Source: Blepharisma japonicum
Lineage: Eukaryota; Ciliophora; Heterotrichea; Heterotrichida; Blepharismidae
NCBI GenBank assembly: GCA_949751835.1
Contig: CATKHK010000134.1
Location: 1 to 64,000 of the forward strand
DNA: 64,000 nt
Reading direction: 5' to 3'
The notes under the pieces were generated by a model that saw only the letters and a program-made list of their open reading frames with translations, was not told the origin of the DNA and did not search any database. The stretch's first letter is position 1. Each line of letters opens with the position of its first letter. Shown piece by piece: positions 6,214-63,915 of the stretch. The position numbers were made by a program, and so were the translations under genes.

Positions 6214-7233
6214 CTATCCCCTAGGGATTTTTTCCAAGACAATTGAATGATAGCTCGACTGAGAATTTCTTACATCCATGCTATCAACCACTTCACACAA
6301 TTCCTTTGTAAAAATTTCAAAAATCCTCTCAAACTCTTCATTATCCCTTTTTATTGCTCTCTTTAAAGGTGCTCTCATCATTCCAGGTCTATATTTCTTT
6401 ATCTTCTCAACAATCTCTTTAAAATCCTCATCAGAAACTCCTTCACCCCTTTTCGTTTCTATTTTATCGATGGAAATTACTCTGAATAAATTTCCGACCT
6501 CTTCTAATGCCCTTTGGATTTCTTCATTACTTCTTCTATAAATCGGCATCGATAAATCTCTTCTTTCTTCTTTAGTAATAACTCCTCTAGTTAGTAAATT
6601 TAAAGAAACTTGCTGCATTAAGACGTTTCCTAAGTTTAAGTTAGCATTATTGTCAGCGAACTGCAACAGTAACCTACCATTGTTTACTAGCTCTTTATAT
6701 CTGTGAGATAAAAAAGTAACTAAATCTCTATGGGCAAGTTCTGATGCTATAGCCTTGAATTCTAAGTCATTGGAAGAGGATGGGACAATACTGTCAGGAG
6801 CACTTAAAGGCTGGGATAACCAATGAATGGCTGCCGATGAAAACCCAATATGGACCGAATTTTCAGGTAAAAGCTGCTCATAAAATGATCTTCCTATAGC
6901 TGAAAAATAAACGTCAGGAATTTTTATATATGATTCGTCAGACTCTAATAGGGTTTTATAAGCAGCGACCCAGTTATTGTCAGGCAAATCATTGTGAATG
7001 ACAAAAACAGGCTGCGTTGAAATTTCTCTGAATTTCTGAAGTGTACTGTTAAGAAAAGTCATGGAGTTATAGACCTCAGAAGATCCATAATCAGCAATTA
7101 CTATGGTGCTATTTGTAAGGGTTGAAGAAAAATTGAGAATTCCACTGAATGTTTGAGCGGCTTTGAAGAGCATTTTTCTCTGCTGGACTGAAGATTCATT
7201 GTAGTTTGGAAGAACAAAGCCTCCTGTTTCCAT
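6214..7233 (-). CDS. SABATH-type carboxyl methyltransferase-like protein, 339 aa
   Basis: ATG at 7233 begins METGGFVLPNYN. The protein matches the SAM-dependent carboxyl methyltransferase (salicylate/jasmonate methyltransferase, Methyltransf_7) plan. Motif I is IVIADYGSSEVYNSM; next comes VFVIHNDLPDNNW; then SFYEQLLPENSVHIGFSSAAIHWLS, the substrate/active-site signature; then FLSHRYKELVNNGRLLLQF. Length fits the family (~350-380) with a slightly short C-terminus. The family methylates small carboxylic acids with S-adenosylmethionine. The substrate here is unknown. No introns or internal TGA are needed. The family is best known from plants and is scattered in protists, so its origin is worth a phylogeny. 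Confidence 0.85.
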   Translation of the reverse strand: METGGFVLPNYNESSVQQRKMLFKAAQTFSGILNFSSTLTNSTIVIADYGSSEVYNSMTFLNSTLQKFREISTQPVFVIHNDLPDNNWVAAYKTLLESDESYIKIPDVYFSAIGRSFYEQLLPENSVHIGFSSAAIHWLSQPLSAPDSIVPSSSNDLEFKAIASELAHRDLVTFLSHRYKELVNNGRLLLQFADNNANLNLGNVLMQQVSLNLLTRGVITKEERRDLSMPIYRRSNEEIQRALEEVGNLFRVISIDKIETKRGEGVSDEDFKEIVEKIKKYRPGMMRAPLKRAIKRDNEEFERIFEIFTKELCEVVDSMDVRNSQSSYHSIVLEKIPRG

Positions 7234-7516
7234 GGTTTTATTATTAAATTAGATGATTATTAAAGATCTATATTGAACCATCATTATTTTGCATATAAGC
7301 ATTATTAAGACAAAATGAGGACAATTAGAGTGGTGGAAAAGAAATATTTTAGAAAATTAAAATTTAACTGTCCTCTCGTTTATAATTTAAGATAAATTAA
7401 TAATGACTATAGAAAAAAGGCAAAACAATGTTTACTTTGTATTATTTATGATATTCTAAATATATCCATCAGATTATGATATAAGATAGAGCTTAATTGA
7501 TTTTAATAATTTTATT

Positions 7517-8815
7517 TTAGATAGTTGCTACCTGAGTTGTTTGTTTTGAAGCAAGATCAAATCTCCAGAGCTGGTTTTGATAAATAACAAAGTAAAGGGA
7601 ACCCTTGTAGTGAACAACGCTTGATTGATTATAGCCACCCTGAGTGCTATTAGTTCCTATTATATTCCAGCTTGAGATATTGTTTTCAGAACTTTCGAAA
7701 GTCCTTCCACCTTTCTCAAGCACATAAATTCTACTGTTACCTCTCATCATCAATTTATAGCATTTTGCATTCAAAGCTAAATTCGGGACTTCTTGATAGT
7801 TATTTTGGAGGATGCTATAAGTTATGATTTTTTGGATATAATAACTTGCTACAAGAATCGTATCTTTATATAGCATATTGCAGCCATAACTGAAATTATA
7901 GCCTTTTGGGAGTAAAGCCATACTTTCCCAAACATTTTGCTTAAAATCATACCTTTCGGCTAGATTATTCTTTCCTCCTATCAAATATACAAAATTATTA
8001 TAAAATATAGGATCAACATAATAATTCGCTTTTGAGCTTTGCAGCATTTTAATGTCTTTATTTTTATCAACAGTAAATGTAAGGCCTGAATTGGTATCTG
8101 GATTACAGCAATAAAAATAAGTTTTATCAGGGAGTATGCAACTTCTCGTGTATCCGTGTATTGATTCTTGAGTTGGAAGAGTCACTGTAGAAGAAATCTG
8201 GAAGGTATCTAAATTTATAGTCACAAAATCTTTTGAATCATGTCTAAAAAATGAAAGTTCATTTGACTCAACATATTCTCGATTTTGCCCAAAAGGATTA
8301 AAAGTGGTTTTATAAATGTTTTTAATCGCTGCATTTATTTCTGTGTAATCTAAGCAGAATTCATTTATATTTCACTCATTCATCTTGTTTTGAACCTCTG
8401 AAGCGTTTAATTTTAGCACATTTTCCATATCATCTTCAGTTGCAATGTCAAGAATATCCTCTCCACTGTATAAAACTTTTACTATTTTATTGCATCTCGT
8501 CTCGGCATCTTTAATTTGAGCAATATATTTATCAAATTCAGCTTTAAAATTCTTGATAATTTCATTTGCGCTGGCAATTGCTTCGATTCTATGTTTTTTA
8601 ATATCTTGTTTGAGTGCTTTCAGTTTATCGATGATGGGTTTCTTAATTTCTTCTGCTGGCTTAAAGTAGAGTCTTATACATTGATGTCCTTTAGAAGTTG
8701 GCTTTACTACATGATCAAGGGCATGCTCTTTGCAAAATAAGATGGTTCCTTCGCACTCACACCTTCCAAAGAGTTTGCTTCCACAGCCATCTATAAAGCA
8801 CCTTCCACTAAACAT
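7517..8815 (-). CDS. Cys/His finger, coiled-coil, kelch-like protein (family member 1), 432 aa
   Basis: ATG at 8815; one in-frame TGA at 8372-8374 is Trp. Residues 6-35 form a finger: C6-x4-C11-x7-C19-x-C21-x6-C28-x2-H31-x3-H35. It resembles a B-box-like zinc finger (inference). A coiled coil spans ~50-130 (IKKPIIDKLKALKQDIKK). From ~200 there are kelch-like blades, e.g. VYLIGGKNNLAERYDFKQNVW, ending ...LWRFDLASKQ. The closest relative is the neighbouring gene at 10.3-11.8 kb, 433 aa. The family is a protein-interaction scaffold by architecture; no enzyme motif is seen and the function is unknown. Confidence 0.8.
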
Positions 8816-10282: not shown

Positions 10283-11808
10283 TTAAACTGTTTTTACTAG
10301 AGATAATTGCTTTGAAGATAGATCAAATTTCCAAAGCTGACTGTCATACTCAATAAAATAAAGACTGCCCTTATAGCGAACAATTGCTGATTGATGATGA
10401 TACTCATTTGATATTGAATTTTTGCCTATTTGCTCCCAATTTAAGATATCATTTTCAGCACTTTCAAGAATCCTCTTTCCTTTTTCAAATAAATATATTC
10501 TATTGTTACCTCTCAGCATAAATTTCCTGCAATTATTCTCCAAGACTAAATTAGGGACATCTATATAATTGTTTTGAGTGATGCTGTAACTTATAATTTT
10601 TTGGAGGTTTCTGCCAGTTATAAGAATCAAGTCTCCAAATAATGAATTGCAGCTGTAATCATAATTCAAATCTTGAGGCAATGGAGCCAAGCTTAGCCAT
10701 TTATTTTGTTTAAGATCATATCTTTCGGCTAGATTTTTGCATCCACCCAGCAGATATATGAAGCTACCATAGCCCATAGCGCTGATAGTTCACCCTAAGA
10801 TATTAACCTGAACCTAAATCTATAAGGCTAGTTTAACAATTTTTTCCCCGGACCAACGTAACAGGCTAGTGCAGCCTTTATTTGAAATTTGCCAACTTGT
10901 GGAGTTAGGTTTACTAATTTTGCCTTCTCGTAAAAACTATGGCTGAACTGAAACTAAAAGCTATCGCTAAACTATAGCCGATTCTGAGATATATAAATAA
11001 CAGGGTAAAGATAATAGTTTACTTTTGAGCTTTGCAATTGTTTCACATTTCTATTCTTATCGACTAAAAATGTCAGTCCCGAACATGGACTAGTATTACA
11101 ACAGTAAAAATAAGTTTCATCTGGTAGTATGCAAGTTGAGGTGTATGCATATATTGTTTCTTGAATAGTTAGATTGGCAGTCGATGAAATTTGGAAGTTG
11201 TCTAAGTTTATTGTAGAAAAGTTCGATGTAGCATGTCTAAAAAATGACAATTTATTAGATTCAATTTCATCTTTAATTGATCTAAAAGGGTTAAAAGGAA
11301 TTCCACAATTCTTGATTATAGCTGCATTTGTATCTGTATAATCCAAGAGAGGAAAATTTAAATTTCATCCTTGCATTTCGGCCTTGACTTTTTCAGGCTC
11401 AAGTTTAAGTATACTTTCAATATCATTTTCAGTAGGAATATCAAGAAATTCTTCATAATTAAGCAACCCTTCAATTATCTTGTTGCATTTTTTATCGACC
11501 TCATAAATTTGATTAATATAATTTCCAAATGCAATTTTTAAATTTCTAATAACTTCACTTGTTCTGGCAATTGATTCTTTCCTAAAAATTTGGATAGCTT
11601 TTTTGAGTTCTGTTAGCTTTTGAATTACTGTCTGCTTGATTGCTTCGGATGGCTTGAATATTATATATATTAATTGATGTCTGGCGGTTGAAGGTTGTGC
11701 AAAATGCTCAAATGCATGTTCTCGGCAAAATAAGATGCTTCATTCACAATCACACTTTGCAAAGGGCTTGCTTTGACAATTCTCTTTGTAGCATGAGCTA
11801 CTAAACAT
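10283..11808 (-). CDS. Cys/His finger, coiled-coil, kelch-like protein (family member 2), interrupted by a 224-bp insertion
   Basis: ATG at 11808 gives MFSSSCYKENC...; in-frame TGAs read as Trp (CDCEWSILFC). The finger is C6-x4-C11-x7-C19-x-C21-x6-C28-x2-H31-x3-H35, identical in spacing to the 7.5-8.8 kb paralog. The kelch part is broken after YPVIY and resumes at GSFIYLLGG. The paralog reads PIFYNNFVYLIGG there, with no gap. Leaving out 10772-10995 gives 1302 nt and 433 residues against 432 in the paralog, so the gene is intact apart from that insertion. It would be functional if the insertion is an IES removed in the somatic genome, otherwise a pseudogene. Confidence 0.8.
10772..10995. other. 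224-bp IES-like insertion inside a kelch-family gene
   Basis: The segment interrupts the coding sequence and contains stops in the gene's frame. It is flanked by a direct ATA repeat (10769-10771 and 10993-10995; TAT on the gene strand, containing TA). Removing one repeat copy plus the insert exactly restores PVIYGSFIYLLGG, matching the paralog in length. TA-bounded precise insertions are the hallmark of IESs in Blepharisma and Paramecium. Only weak sub-terminal inverted similarity is visible (ATAG...GATAG near both ends). No coding capacity is seen. Confidence 0.75.
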
Positions 11809-50997: not shown

Positions 50998-52224
50998 ATG
51001 ATCACCGATAGTAAAGAGTTTTCAACTTTCCTTGAAAATTTAAAAGACAAATCTTCAGCAGAAATAGGCTTCTTTATAGGCTATACCAATTTAGAAAAAC
51101 AATACATTTATATGCAAACAAATACTCCTACCATAGAAATCCCATCACATAAAAATATCTCCCCTCTGCTGTCATGCCCATTGCCAGTGCCAGAAACGAA
51201 TTATGCAGACTGAATATTGGAATATGCCAAGCAACTTTCAAGGGTTCTACCTGGAGGGCTTGAGATTTTGGGTATTTTCTTGGTATCTGAAGATGATATC
51301 AGCTTAGAGAGTTTCCTAGGATTTCCCGAAGGCTTATTGAACCTATTGGTCGACCTTAATTCTGAAGTTTTAGAAAAGGACAGCTTGATTGTTTTTCACT
51401 TCGCAATCCAAAGTCAAAAAACCACTGCAAAGATAATCGACTTAAAAAATAAAATTATCAGCTCGCCCGAACTAAAACTAGCAACAATCCCAAAGCTTGA
51501 AGAAGTCCGGTGCTTTGTAAAAGCATCCTTAGAAGCAGCTGAAGATGGAAACTCTCATGTCATTATCCAGCAAATTATAAGAGAATGAGGCAACCAATTG
51601 AAAAATAATGTCTTTTCGATAGACGGCCAAACTAAAGCAGATATTGCTATAGGAAGCTTAAAAACAGTAAAAAATATATAGGAAAAAAATTACCATGTAG
51701 CTGAAATTTACTCATCAGCCCCTGGATTTTGTACAAATTCTAATGCTCCAAGAATTAGGGTCCAGGGTTATATAGAAAGCAGAGTATTAGTTCACCCTAA
51801 AAACACTATAAAAGAAACTAGAGAAGTTATTATTAAGGATTTATTATTTTCATTGAAAAATAGGTTGGAAATAATTTCTGAAGAAATACCTTTACAGGAA
51901 AATCCGTTTTTAAATAATCCAGTGAAGTTTGTAAACCAGCTACCTAGACGAGCATTTTTTAATTTAAATAACGGCTGCATTCTGAGTAGTTATGGCACAA
52001 CTTCACAAGATAAAGATTTTATTCAAGCTTATACCACTACAATTTCATCGGCAAAGCTAAGCTATGCAGAATCAAGAGAATTTCACTTAAAAGTTGACTC
52101 GCCAATGGAGGTAGGGAAAGTGGAAGAAAAAAAAGACCAAATAGAAAATATGAGATTCATGATCTTTTTAGGCGTTATTTTTCCAGTGTTGTTGGTATCA
52201 TTCTTAATAAAAGCATACAGATAA
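50998..52224 (+). CDS. ODR4-like ER membrane protein, 403 aa
   Basis: ATG at 50998, 29 bp after the START gene stop; 15-nt intron at 51667-51681; TGAs are Trp. The family plan is seen: AEIGFFIGYTNLEKQYI, a WILEYAKQLSRVLPGGLEILGIFLVSE-type block, SSAPGFCTNSNAPRIRVQG, LPRRAFFNLNNGCILSSYG, and a C-terminal transmembrane helix FMIFLGVIFPVLLVSFLIKA. ODR4 is tail-anchored in the ER and, in animals, localises receptors and the UFM1 protease UFSP2. Length fits the family (~400-450). Confidence 0.88.
51667..51681 (+). other. 15-nt intron
   Basis: GTAAAAAATATATAG, phase 0 in the ODR4-like gene. Removal joins SLKT to EKNYHVAEIYSSAPGF; retention would end translation at TAG. Confidence 0.9.
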
Positions 52225-56080: not shown

Positions 56081-57016
56081 ATGGAATATAATCGATGTTT
56101 CAAGAAAGACTGCAAGTTTACGGCTTTTCAGAAGGATACAAATAAGCATGTTCCAAAACTTATAAAGGCTTATCAAGACTATACTGGCACTTATATTCAA
56201 AATAAGTCACTTTATATAATATATCAAGAGAAAGGCAAAATTAATTTATTGATTTATAGCACTGAGCGAGAAAGCCAAGAAAAAAAAATTTTGGAGACTC
56301 CAGAATTACTAGATCTTCGCACATGTTTAGCTCAGCTTCCAAATGGTAAAATATTTTGTTACGGCAACAGAAGCCTACCAAATTCTGGCATCACGGTAAT
56401 GATTGATGAAAATGGTAAAGTCCATAAACTGCCATCTGGAACACCTTGCGGATTTTCATCAGCTATCTATTTTAATAGCAATATCTATTGCTTTGGGGGA
56501 GTTAATCAAGATAATCATTATTTAACTTTATCTTGCAAGTTTGATTTGAATAAAAATCGATGAATCAAATTAACTTCAATGCCAAAAGCTGATCAACATT
56601 GCACTAGTGTTGTATTTAATGGGAATATTTTAATTTATGGGTATGAAAATGCAAATCTTATGTTGTATTCAATCGATATTGACTCTTTCTCTACAATTAA
56701 TTGTGAGTTTGCAAAGTGAGACAATATGATCCTGGCAAGTGCAGAGAAGAGATTGTATTTGATTGGAAGGGTATCAATTTATGAGAGTGATTTTGAAAGT
56801 TACACTTCTTGGAGCTGAATTGCCGACTCAGTAATTAGAGATTCAATTTGTCAAGTCTATTGCTCATTCAATGCAGGAACAATATATATAGGATATATTC
56901 ATCGCTGTGGTTACAAGTTTTACAAGTTTGGCCTGAGCGAGAAAAGGATGACAAGATGTTTTGAAGACAAATTCTCTTTTAGGAAAACTGTTTGCATATC
57001 TTATAAAATAGCATAA
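56081..57016 (+). CDS. Kelch-like family protein with shortened N-terminus (member 3), 311 aa
   Basis: ATG at 56081 (MEYNRCFKKDC), TAA at 57014-57016; TGAs are Trp (LNKNRWIKL, EFAKWDNM, SWSWIAD). The N-terminus keeps only the first pair of finger cysteines (C-x4-C) and then goes straight to HVPKLIKAYQDYTG, which in the full-length gene at 58.5-60.2 kb follows the coiled coil. The kelch-like part holds LPNGKIFCYGNRSLPNSGIT, SNIYCFGGVNQDNH and VVFNGNILIYGYENANLML. So it looks like an internal-deletion form lacking the coiled coil. Function unknown. Confidence 0.75.
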
Positions 57017-57276: not shown

Positions 57277-58227
57277 ATGGAAGACAACCAATGCTACGAG
57301 CAAGGCTCCGCGCTTCAAGAATATCAAAACGATCCAACCAAACATGCTCCAAAACTTATGCAGGCCTACCAAGATTATGTTGATCCTTATAATCAAAATA
57401 AGTCACTTTATTTAATAAAAGAAATTTACAGAAAAACTTATTTATTTATATATAACACTGAGAGAGGTAGCAAAGAAATGAAAATTTTGAAGACTCCAGA
57501 ATTTCTAGACTATGGGACACGCATAGCTCAGCTTCCAAATAATAAATTGTTTTGTTATGGGAATTGATCATCATTTTCTGGGATCACTTTAGTGATTGAT
57601 GAAAATTATAATATCCAAAAACTTCCATCAGACACTGTAAAAATCCTAAAAACTTCTCTTAATTTTTTGTAAAACAAAAATTAATAATTATTTCCATCTG
57701 GGCATCCGTGTGCGATGTTTACAGCTACTTATTTCAATAGCAGCGTATATTGCTTTGGAGGATTTAATCCCACTGATAAGTGTTTAACTCTATCTCGTAG
57801 ATTTGATTTGGATAGAAATCGATGAATCATATTAGCTTCAATGCCAAAAGCAGATACCTGCAGCACTAGTGTTGTATTTAATGGCAATATTTTAATTTCT
57901 GGATATCTGAATGCAAATATTTTATTGTATTCAATTGATATTGACTCTTTCTACATAATTCCTTATAATTTTAAAGATGCTAGTCTAAAAATCCTGATAA
58001 ATGCAGAAAGGAGGTTGTATTTGATTGAATATAACTCAATTTATGAGAGCGATATTGAAAGTTACATGGTTTGGAGACGAATTGGGAAATCAAAAATTGA
58101 AAGCGGTCCTACTCAAGTGTATTGCTCATACAATGCAGGAGCAATATATATAGGATGCAATATTAATAACGTGACCTATTACTTCAAGTTTGGCCTGAAT
58201 AAGAAAAAGATTACAAAACTCCTTTAA
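57277..58227 (+). CDS. Kelch-like family protein (member 4), interrupted by a 69-bp insertion
   Basis: ATG at 57277 (MEDNQCYEQGSALQEYQND), end at 58227; TGAs are Trp (CYGNWSSFSG, DRNRWIIL). It is a tandem neighbour and close paralog of the gene at 56.1 kb, with the same deletion-type N-terminus. The frame is broken after IQKLPS by a 69-bp insert with an in-frame TAA; without it the text reads KLPSGHPC, matching KLPSGTPC in the paralog, and codes for 293 residues. Function would depend on removal of the insert. Confidence 0.72.
57630..57698. other. 69-bp IES-like insertion with TTCCATC direct repeat
   Basis: TTCCATC occurs at 57623-57629 and 57692-57698, and the DNA between interrupts the kelch gene. 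Deleting one repeat copy and the insert restores the paralog reading exactly. The content is AT-rich with no coding value. Length (~69 bp) is in the range of short ciliate IESs. The repeat holds no TA, which differs from the usual TA-bounded type. It could alternatively be a target-site duplication of a small dead insertion. Confidence 0.6.
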
Positions 58228-63272: not shown

Positions 63273-63745
63273 ATTAACTATTTTATCTCTTGCAAGATAT
63301 AAACAGCTATATATATTGCTCCTCTATTGTATAAAGAGCACATTCCAGCAGGATCACAATAGATAGTTGATTGAGCAATTGGTTTCCAAGCAATACAGCT
63401 TTCAATTTCAATTTCATAAATTAAGTCAATTAAATGCTATCTCATTTCAGCATTTGCAAGGAACTTTGATTGACCTGCTGCAAACTTATAAGGAATAGTA
63501 GAGAAAGAGCCAATATCGATTGAATACAATAAAACATTTCTATAGTGAGAAATCTTAATATTCTCAGTAAATATTATGCTATTGCATAGTCGATCAGGTG
63601 TTGGAATTGAAGTTAATTTGATTCATCTATTTCTATCAAAATCAAATCTATTACATAGAGCTGAATATTCATAGAATTTATTTTTAAAGCCTCCAAAGCA
63701 ATAGACATTCTTGTTGAAGTCGATATTCCCTTTGGTTTTCTTCTT
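63273..63745 (-). pseudogene. Truncated, decayed kelch-family copy
   Basis: Minus-strand translation: NIDFNKNVYCFGGFKNKFYE, then LCNRFDFDRNRWIKLTSIP, IIFTENIKISHYRN, LLYSIDIGSFSTIPYKF and GAIYIAVYILQEIK. These match the kelch half of the neighbouring genes in order. One in-frame TAG lies within, and the first half of the gene is absent, so it is a 3' fragment. Confidence 0.78.
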
Positions 63746-63915
63746 AAAAGTTAAAGATTTTAGGATATGAGAGAAAAAATTGAAATAAAAATTTTGCACT
63801 GCAAAAGTTTTAAGAAAATTTACAATGACTGATATAAACTATAAGGATTTTATTTTGGAGCTCAAATTCCTAATATCAATCGTCTCCATACTCTATCTTG
63901 TATAGTTTAATAAAG

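Follow-up and report, generated by a model that had tools for sequence, protein, structure and literature searches.

The window analysed here comprises positions 1–64000 of contig C134, a stretch of 64,000 nucleotides in a 45.2-Mb assembly of 224 contigs, and it contains two nearby kelch-family genes on the reverse strand, one of them continuous and the other split by a 224-bp segment (Table 1). When this segment is left out, the split gene reads as one uninterrupted frame encoding 433 residues; its neighbour (7520–8815) has 432. Across the insertion site PVIYGSFIYLLGG aligned to PIFYNNFVYLIGG of the neighbour with no gap locally; over the full length, the restored product differs from the neighbour by one single-residue gap distant from the insert, and it aligns to a 433-residue paralog on contig C90 with zero gaps. 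The insertion point is residue 273, where the Kelch_6 motif begins. In the neighbour this motif spans residues 272–303 and scores 28 bits against a Pfam cut-off of 25.3, and in the downstream piece of the split gene a kelch motif scores 24.7 bits, just under the same cut-off. A sequence-only reading of this DNA had described the precise insertion, the ATA repeat at its ends (TAT on the gene strand) and the continuous paralog nearby, and had placed the host among the heterotrich ciliates; all four points held in our analysis.

No haplotype contig representing an insert-free second copy of the locus was seen in the assembly, and when the neighbour's protein was searched against it, that neighbour matched itself at 100% and the next copy at 68% identity. 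The gene at 6214–7248, adjoining the kelch genes, belongs to the SAM-dependent carboxyl methyltransferases (PF03492), which are known mainly from plants.

Table 1. Positions of the kelch-family genes, their inserts and the remaining surveyed joints. Coordinates refer to the window unless a contig is given.
Feature	Position	Strand	Remarks
Inserted segment, 224 bp	10772..10995	-	G+C 0.379; stops in six frames; unique in assembly at E<=10
ATA direct repeat, copy 1 (gene strand: TAT)	10769..10771		
ATA direct repeat, copy 2 (gene strand: TAT)	10993..10995		
Interrupted kelch-family gene, upstream part	10996..11808	-	start codon ATG at 11808
Interrupted kelch-family gene, downstream part	10283..10771	-	sub-cut-off kelch motif; stop codon 10283-10285
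Uninterrupted paralog, 432 residues	7517..8815	-	Kelch_6 (PF13964), 28 bits (cut-off 25.3)
Second IES-like insert, 69 bp	57623..57691	+	G+C 0.20; starts with TTCCATC; second copy 57692-57698
Kelch-like gene split by the 69-bp insert	57277..58227	+	293 residues once left out
Uninterrupted neighbour paralog of the gene at 57277-58227	56081..57016	+	
Insert, 164 bp	C90:34478-34641		8-bp direct repeat AAATGTTA; 430-residue product when left out
Insert, 137 bp	C6:714241-714377		TAT repeat; 419-residue product, gap-free up to last residue
Joints without open product (6)	second C164 gene (two), C50 (two), C77 432, C6 432		
Joints with repeat of 0-1 base (7)	C164 332, C2 35, C6 119, C6 138, C6 123, C6 26, C134 96 (~65.8 kb)		

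The genome around these genes is Blepharisma-like, as judged by in-frame TGA, the telomere repeat and a tiny intron. TGA occurs in frame in kelch-family members, where we read it as Trp; three units of the CCCTAACA telomere repeat gave 77 forward and 91 reverse matches, compared to 0 for a reversed control; and a 15-nt GT-AG intron (GTAAAAAATATATAG) lies at 51667–51681 in an ODR4-like gene. G+C averages about 32%, ranging from 28 to 39% in 2-kb steps. These features agree with the B. stoltei genome report (PMC9942806), which describes UGA as Trp, permutations of CCCTAACA as telomeres, 66% A+T and introns mostly of 15 and 16 bp; the assembly published there, of 41 Mbp with 64 telomere-to-telomere sequences, is unlike the present one in size and in number of contigs. 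When 40 further chosen frames of the window were scanned with Pfam, 32 had one or more family matches at E<=0.001, including long frames for a WD40 protein (1208 aa), a copine (628 aa), a tubulin-family protein (451 aa) and a proteasomal-type AAA ATPase (440 aa). The contig, in which two clean interruptions were seen, looks somatic because it is gene-dense, whereas B. stoltei germline sequence would be expected to carry roughly one IES per kilobase, given the 39,799 IESs on 41 Mbp recorded in PMC9942856.

Boundaries and content of the 224-bp segment

To delimit the segment, we scored 453 distinct open products, with ends up to 25 bp from the proposed ones, against five paralogs. In each of the best six of these the removed length is 224 bp; second among them, 1.0 point below the first (1370.6 versus 1371.6), is the TAT register. 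In a scan of local scores with two references, the best three products listed were again all 224 bp, none of them in the TAT register. The length is firm, being fixed by homology, and the proposed register rests on the direct repeat. Among random pairs of points 224 bp apart, a TA-containing repeat of at least three bases was found in 2.2% (1.6% in the window alone), and rough arithmetic allowing for freedom of register puts the chance of a TAT-class repeat nearer 10%, so that the ATA repeat counts for little by itself.

The sequence-only reading had also argued that random insertion followed by decay would rarely be so exact. This argument does not stand: a gene hit by any target-duplicating insertion is restored with equal exactness once one copy of the duplication is omitted, and exactness therefore cannot separate an IES from a plain insertion. 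A recent insertion that was never excised, transposon-like or repair-derived and with a short target duplication, would make the gene a young pseudogene in both nuclei, and it predicts the identical repeat and the identical exact restoration.

A coding exon is ruled out by stops in all six frames. The segment would be very improbable as a spliceosomal intron: eight in-frame GT-AG readings lie within 60 bp of the ends, none of them 224 bp long, and the top one, of 209 bp, scores 18 points lower than the TAT register (1352.6 versus 1370.6). Among the comparable inserts described below, the 164-bp one has three GT-AG readings, none 164 bp long and the best at 1112.0 versus 1125.0, and no GT-AG reading was found for the 69-bp one; B. 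stoltei introns, as given in PMC9942806, are predominantly 15–16 bp, the size of the intron in the ODR4-like gene. Only the 137-bp insert can also be read as a GT...AG intron at nearly the same score (356.5 versus 357.5), which suggests that some long introns may exist.

No terminal inverted repeat was found in the 224-bp segment, with 0 of the first 10 terminal positions matching; a search of the assembly at E<=10, in which very common words were skipped, returned no other match; and its DNA fold is ordinary, 157 of 200 shuffles folding at least as well. On these observations a MITE or other repeat family was rejected. Like Bogo, a transposon of B. stoltei, and the abundant MITE related to it (PMC9942856), the segment would be a germline-type insert with a short duplicated target, here a proposed one. 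It differs from them in that the target is ATA and not TAA/TTA, in its length, which is not that of the MITE class (about 389 bp), and in lacking the C-rich inverted repeat, some 30 bp long, that Bogo carries, and an identity with Bogo/Pogo-family MITEs was rejected on target and inverted repeat. The Bogo end motif as printed for B. stoltei had 0 matches in the assembly with up to one mismatch allowed, which implies either an assembly without such germline DNA or a species other than B. stoltei.

A closer likeness is to the IESs of B. stoltei. According to PMC9942856, about three-quarters of these are bounded by TA-containing repeats, most commonly TA, TAT/ATA and TATA, especially at lengths up to 228 bp; their median length is 255 bp with one peak at 228 bp, and about 70% are intragenic. 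The 224-bp segment falls within this length class, has a TA-containing terminal direct repeat (ATA/TAT), sits inside a gene, is non-coding and, when removed in silico with one repeat copy left, restores the coding frame precisely. It is richer in G+C than the 0.333 reported for B. stoltei IESs, lies in an otherwise somatic-looking assembly, and lacks the terminal inverted repeat that is common, if heterogeneous and not universal, in Blepharisma IESs; this lack is not disqualifying, since the same text describes no terminal motif conserved across all B. stoltei IESs. As far as the sequence can tell, the segment looks like germline DNA that is normally cut out and has been left in the assembly.

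Comparable inserts in the kelch family

The protein of the uninterrupted neighbour (7520–8815) has 103 matches in the assembly, 69 of which are single near-full-length stretches free of TAA/TAG (query start <=25, end >=417). The upstream half of the interrupted gene has 143 matches, some of them decayed pieces. Decayed family copies with internal in-frame stops lie at C90:25287–26097 and C90:14860–15476, and scattered kelch-family pieces at C160:19909–21842. Within the window, positions 63437–63838 hold a truncated kelch-like fragment, perhaps another copy that has decayed or been interrupted further.

We surveyed 292 kb of own-genome sequence, with some loci overlapping, for interruptions, retaining ungapped matches that exceeded 20 residues and reached 35% identity, and inserts of 20–900 bp. 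An event was listed if two or more queries supported it or its summed score exceeded 100, and part of this listing, 17 distinct joints, was scanned. Because such a survey detects interruptions only in genes that have paralogs, it is no measure of enrichment in multi-copy families. For four inserts, of 224, 164, 137 and 69 bp, the product was open and the joint carried a direct repeat of at least three bases. Similar stretches thus occur in related genes, at least two besides the 224-bp one and probably three, which bears out the earlier suggestion that the segment is one of a set: the 69-bp insert in the same window, the 164-bp insert on C90 and perhaps the 137-bp insert on C6.

Random pairs of points would yield an equally good repeat with a chance of 4e-4 for the 164-bp insert, 2.8e-3 for the 69-bp insert and 0.022 for the 137-bp insert. 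The 8-bp and 7-bp repeats carry weight, and the two TAT cases (224 and 137 bp) are each weak alone, at about 10%. The open 293-residue frame obtained by omitting the 69-bp insert resembles its neighbour at 56081–57016; here the TTCCATC register tied with the adjacent one, and with other references a different register came first. Neither the 137-bp nor the 69-bp insert has another match in the assembly at E<=10, and the 164-bp insert has one partial match of 48 bp, in A+T-rich DNA, which we did not take as meaningful.

Of the remaining 13 of the 17 joints, six yielded no open product, and in seven the repeat of the top-scoring product measured 0 or 1 base; several of the 13 appear to be decayed copies, neighbouring genes or a tandem repeat instead of inserts. 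This contrast leans towards the four, since the first scans put a repeat of at least three bases in the top product for the 164- and 137-bp inserts only, the 224- and 69-bp repeats emerged with more or closer references, and the other 13 joints were scanned once. Separately, a 346-bp stretch at C164:22880–23225 replaces a few codons of a kelch-family member untidily and with no repeat; with relatives on C6 and C34 (81% over 143 bp and 75% over about 165 bp), it looks, from these matches, like DNA captured from elsewhere in the same assembly.

The four clean inserts also bear on whether the segment might reflect assembly only, that is, an ordinary, well-excised IES whose consensus was built from germline or unedited molecules; this is a variant of the IES explanation, kept separate since it would leave nothing out of the ordinary. 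In its favour, assembly is difficult where related genes are clustered, and each of the four inserts is found in a cluster of this sort, although the survey covered only genes with paralogs. A germline-derived stretch should, however, show many more interruptions than this gene-dense contig with its long open frames, and we consider an assembly effect improbable.

Selection on the interrupted genes

Of 27 aligned sequences, 11 made up the tree to which codon models were fitted, and the background was held constant once the initial fit had been made. For the window gene, the terminal branch spans 1.69 neutral changes per codon and has an omega of about 0.25. Upstream of the insert (272 codons) omega is about 0.25 (2dlnL versus omega 1 = 21.6), and downstream (161 codons) about 0.2 (2dlnL 16.7). 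The best-fit neutral tail of the branch is zero, and making its last 15% neutral costs 1.8 log units across all codons, or 1.4 for the downstream part. Constraint acts on both sides of the 224-bp insert. The C90 gene with the 164-bp insert behaves like the window gene (omega about 0.2), and the C6 gene with the 137-bp insert, fitted with 12 sequences, gives a weaker signal, with omega about 0.4 overall and 0.5 downstream (2dlnL 5.8), where a neutral tail is hardly excluded.

The remainder of the gene is open in all four interrupted genes, an observation that is no independent evidence for those with the 224-, 164- and 69-bp inserts, whose scans required openness. Zero nonsense codons among the 433 of the window gene limit any neutral period to at most 0.14 changes per codon, and zero in the roughly 1575 codons of the four genes pooled limit an average or shared neutral period to at most 0.039, a bound that ignores indels and the easier recognition of clean genes. 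The interrupted genes were functional until recently, or are still so once the segment is removed.

These limits weigh on a recent, never-excised insertion as the explanation. The window gene carries no nonsense or frameshift elsewhere, its neutral period being bounded at 0.14 along a branch of 1.69; the pooled bound points the same way, weakened in that clean genes are those recognised as clean; and the searches of the assembly turned up no repeat family as a source of the 224-, 137- and 69-bp inserts. Copies with multiple lesions do occur in the same arrays (C90 and C160), so that turnover of the family looks high, and we regard a recent insertion as a substantial possibility, albeit not the one to which we incline.

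Origin and possible fate of the segment

Taken together, the Blepharisma-like genome, the length and repeat class, the comparable inserts and the constraint seen in each half of the gene favour an IES, and we consider it somewhat probable that the 224-bp stretch is an IES-like segment, retained or poorly excised, in redundant genes. Of the original proposal of a retained or late-excised IES, the length, repeat and non-coding character agree with B. stoltei IESs, while the appeal to exactness has been dropped. Germline origin, excision, partial retention and tolerance of the segment are what we infer. In such a scenario, a short non-coding germline segment would have entered a kelch-family gene at a site containing TA, and a developmental excisase, possibly a PiggyMac-type enzyme, the probable one in B. 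stoltei, could cut it at the TAT repeat with one copy left behind. The segment would be present here since excision was incomplete or failed in much of the macronucleus, or since the assembler took segment-bearing reads. Where retained, it would leave the gene frameshifted; where cut out, the gene would encode the 433-residue protein. Since the family is large and its members are clustered, retention in a single copy may be tolerated.

Retention of B. stoltei IESs in MAC-enriched DNA is given as 0.02 or less in PMC9942856, so that an IES reaching a consensus sequence would be unusual; its authors describe excision as a continuum and assemblies as collapsing partially retained IESs. Incomplete excision was commoner among new IESs than among older ones in coding regions (2.1% versus 0.3%), according to PMC8354472, a case that shares the incomplete excision proposed here but concerns another ciliate class and measured retention from reads.

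A bolder extension, that poorly excised IESs accumulate in the large, fast-turning kelch family and act as somatic on/off switches, strikes us as a long shot; if true, macronuclear copies, cells or clones would carry differing repaired sets, and the repertoire would depend on DNA editing. Whether the segments are excised or fixed, a read check is needed before interrupted kelch-family gene models are called pseudogenes. If they are fixed insertions, they would show how a would-be IES escapes recognition. If they are partly excised, they would form a natural set of loci for measuring the interplay of excision efficiency, IES age and gene redundancy in a ciliate whose lineage split off early from that of the model species.
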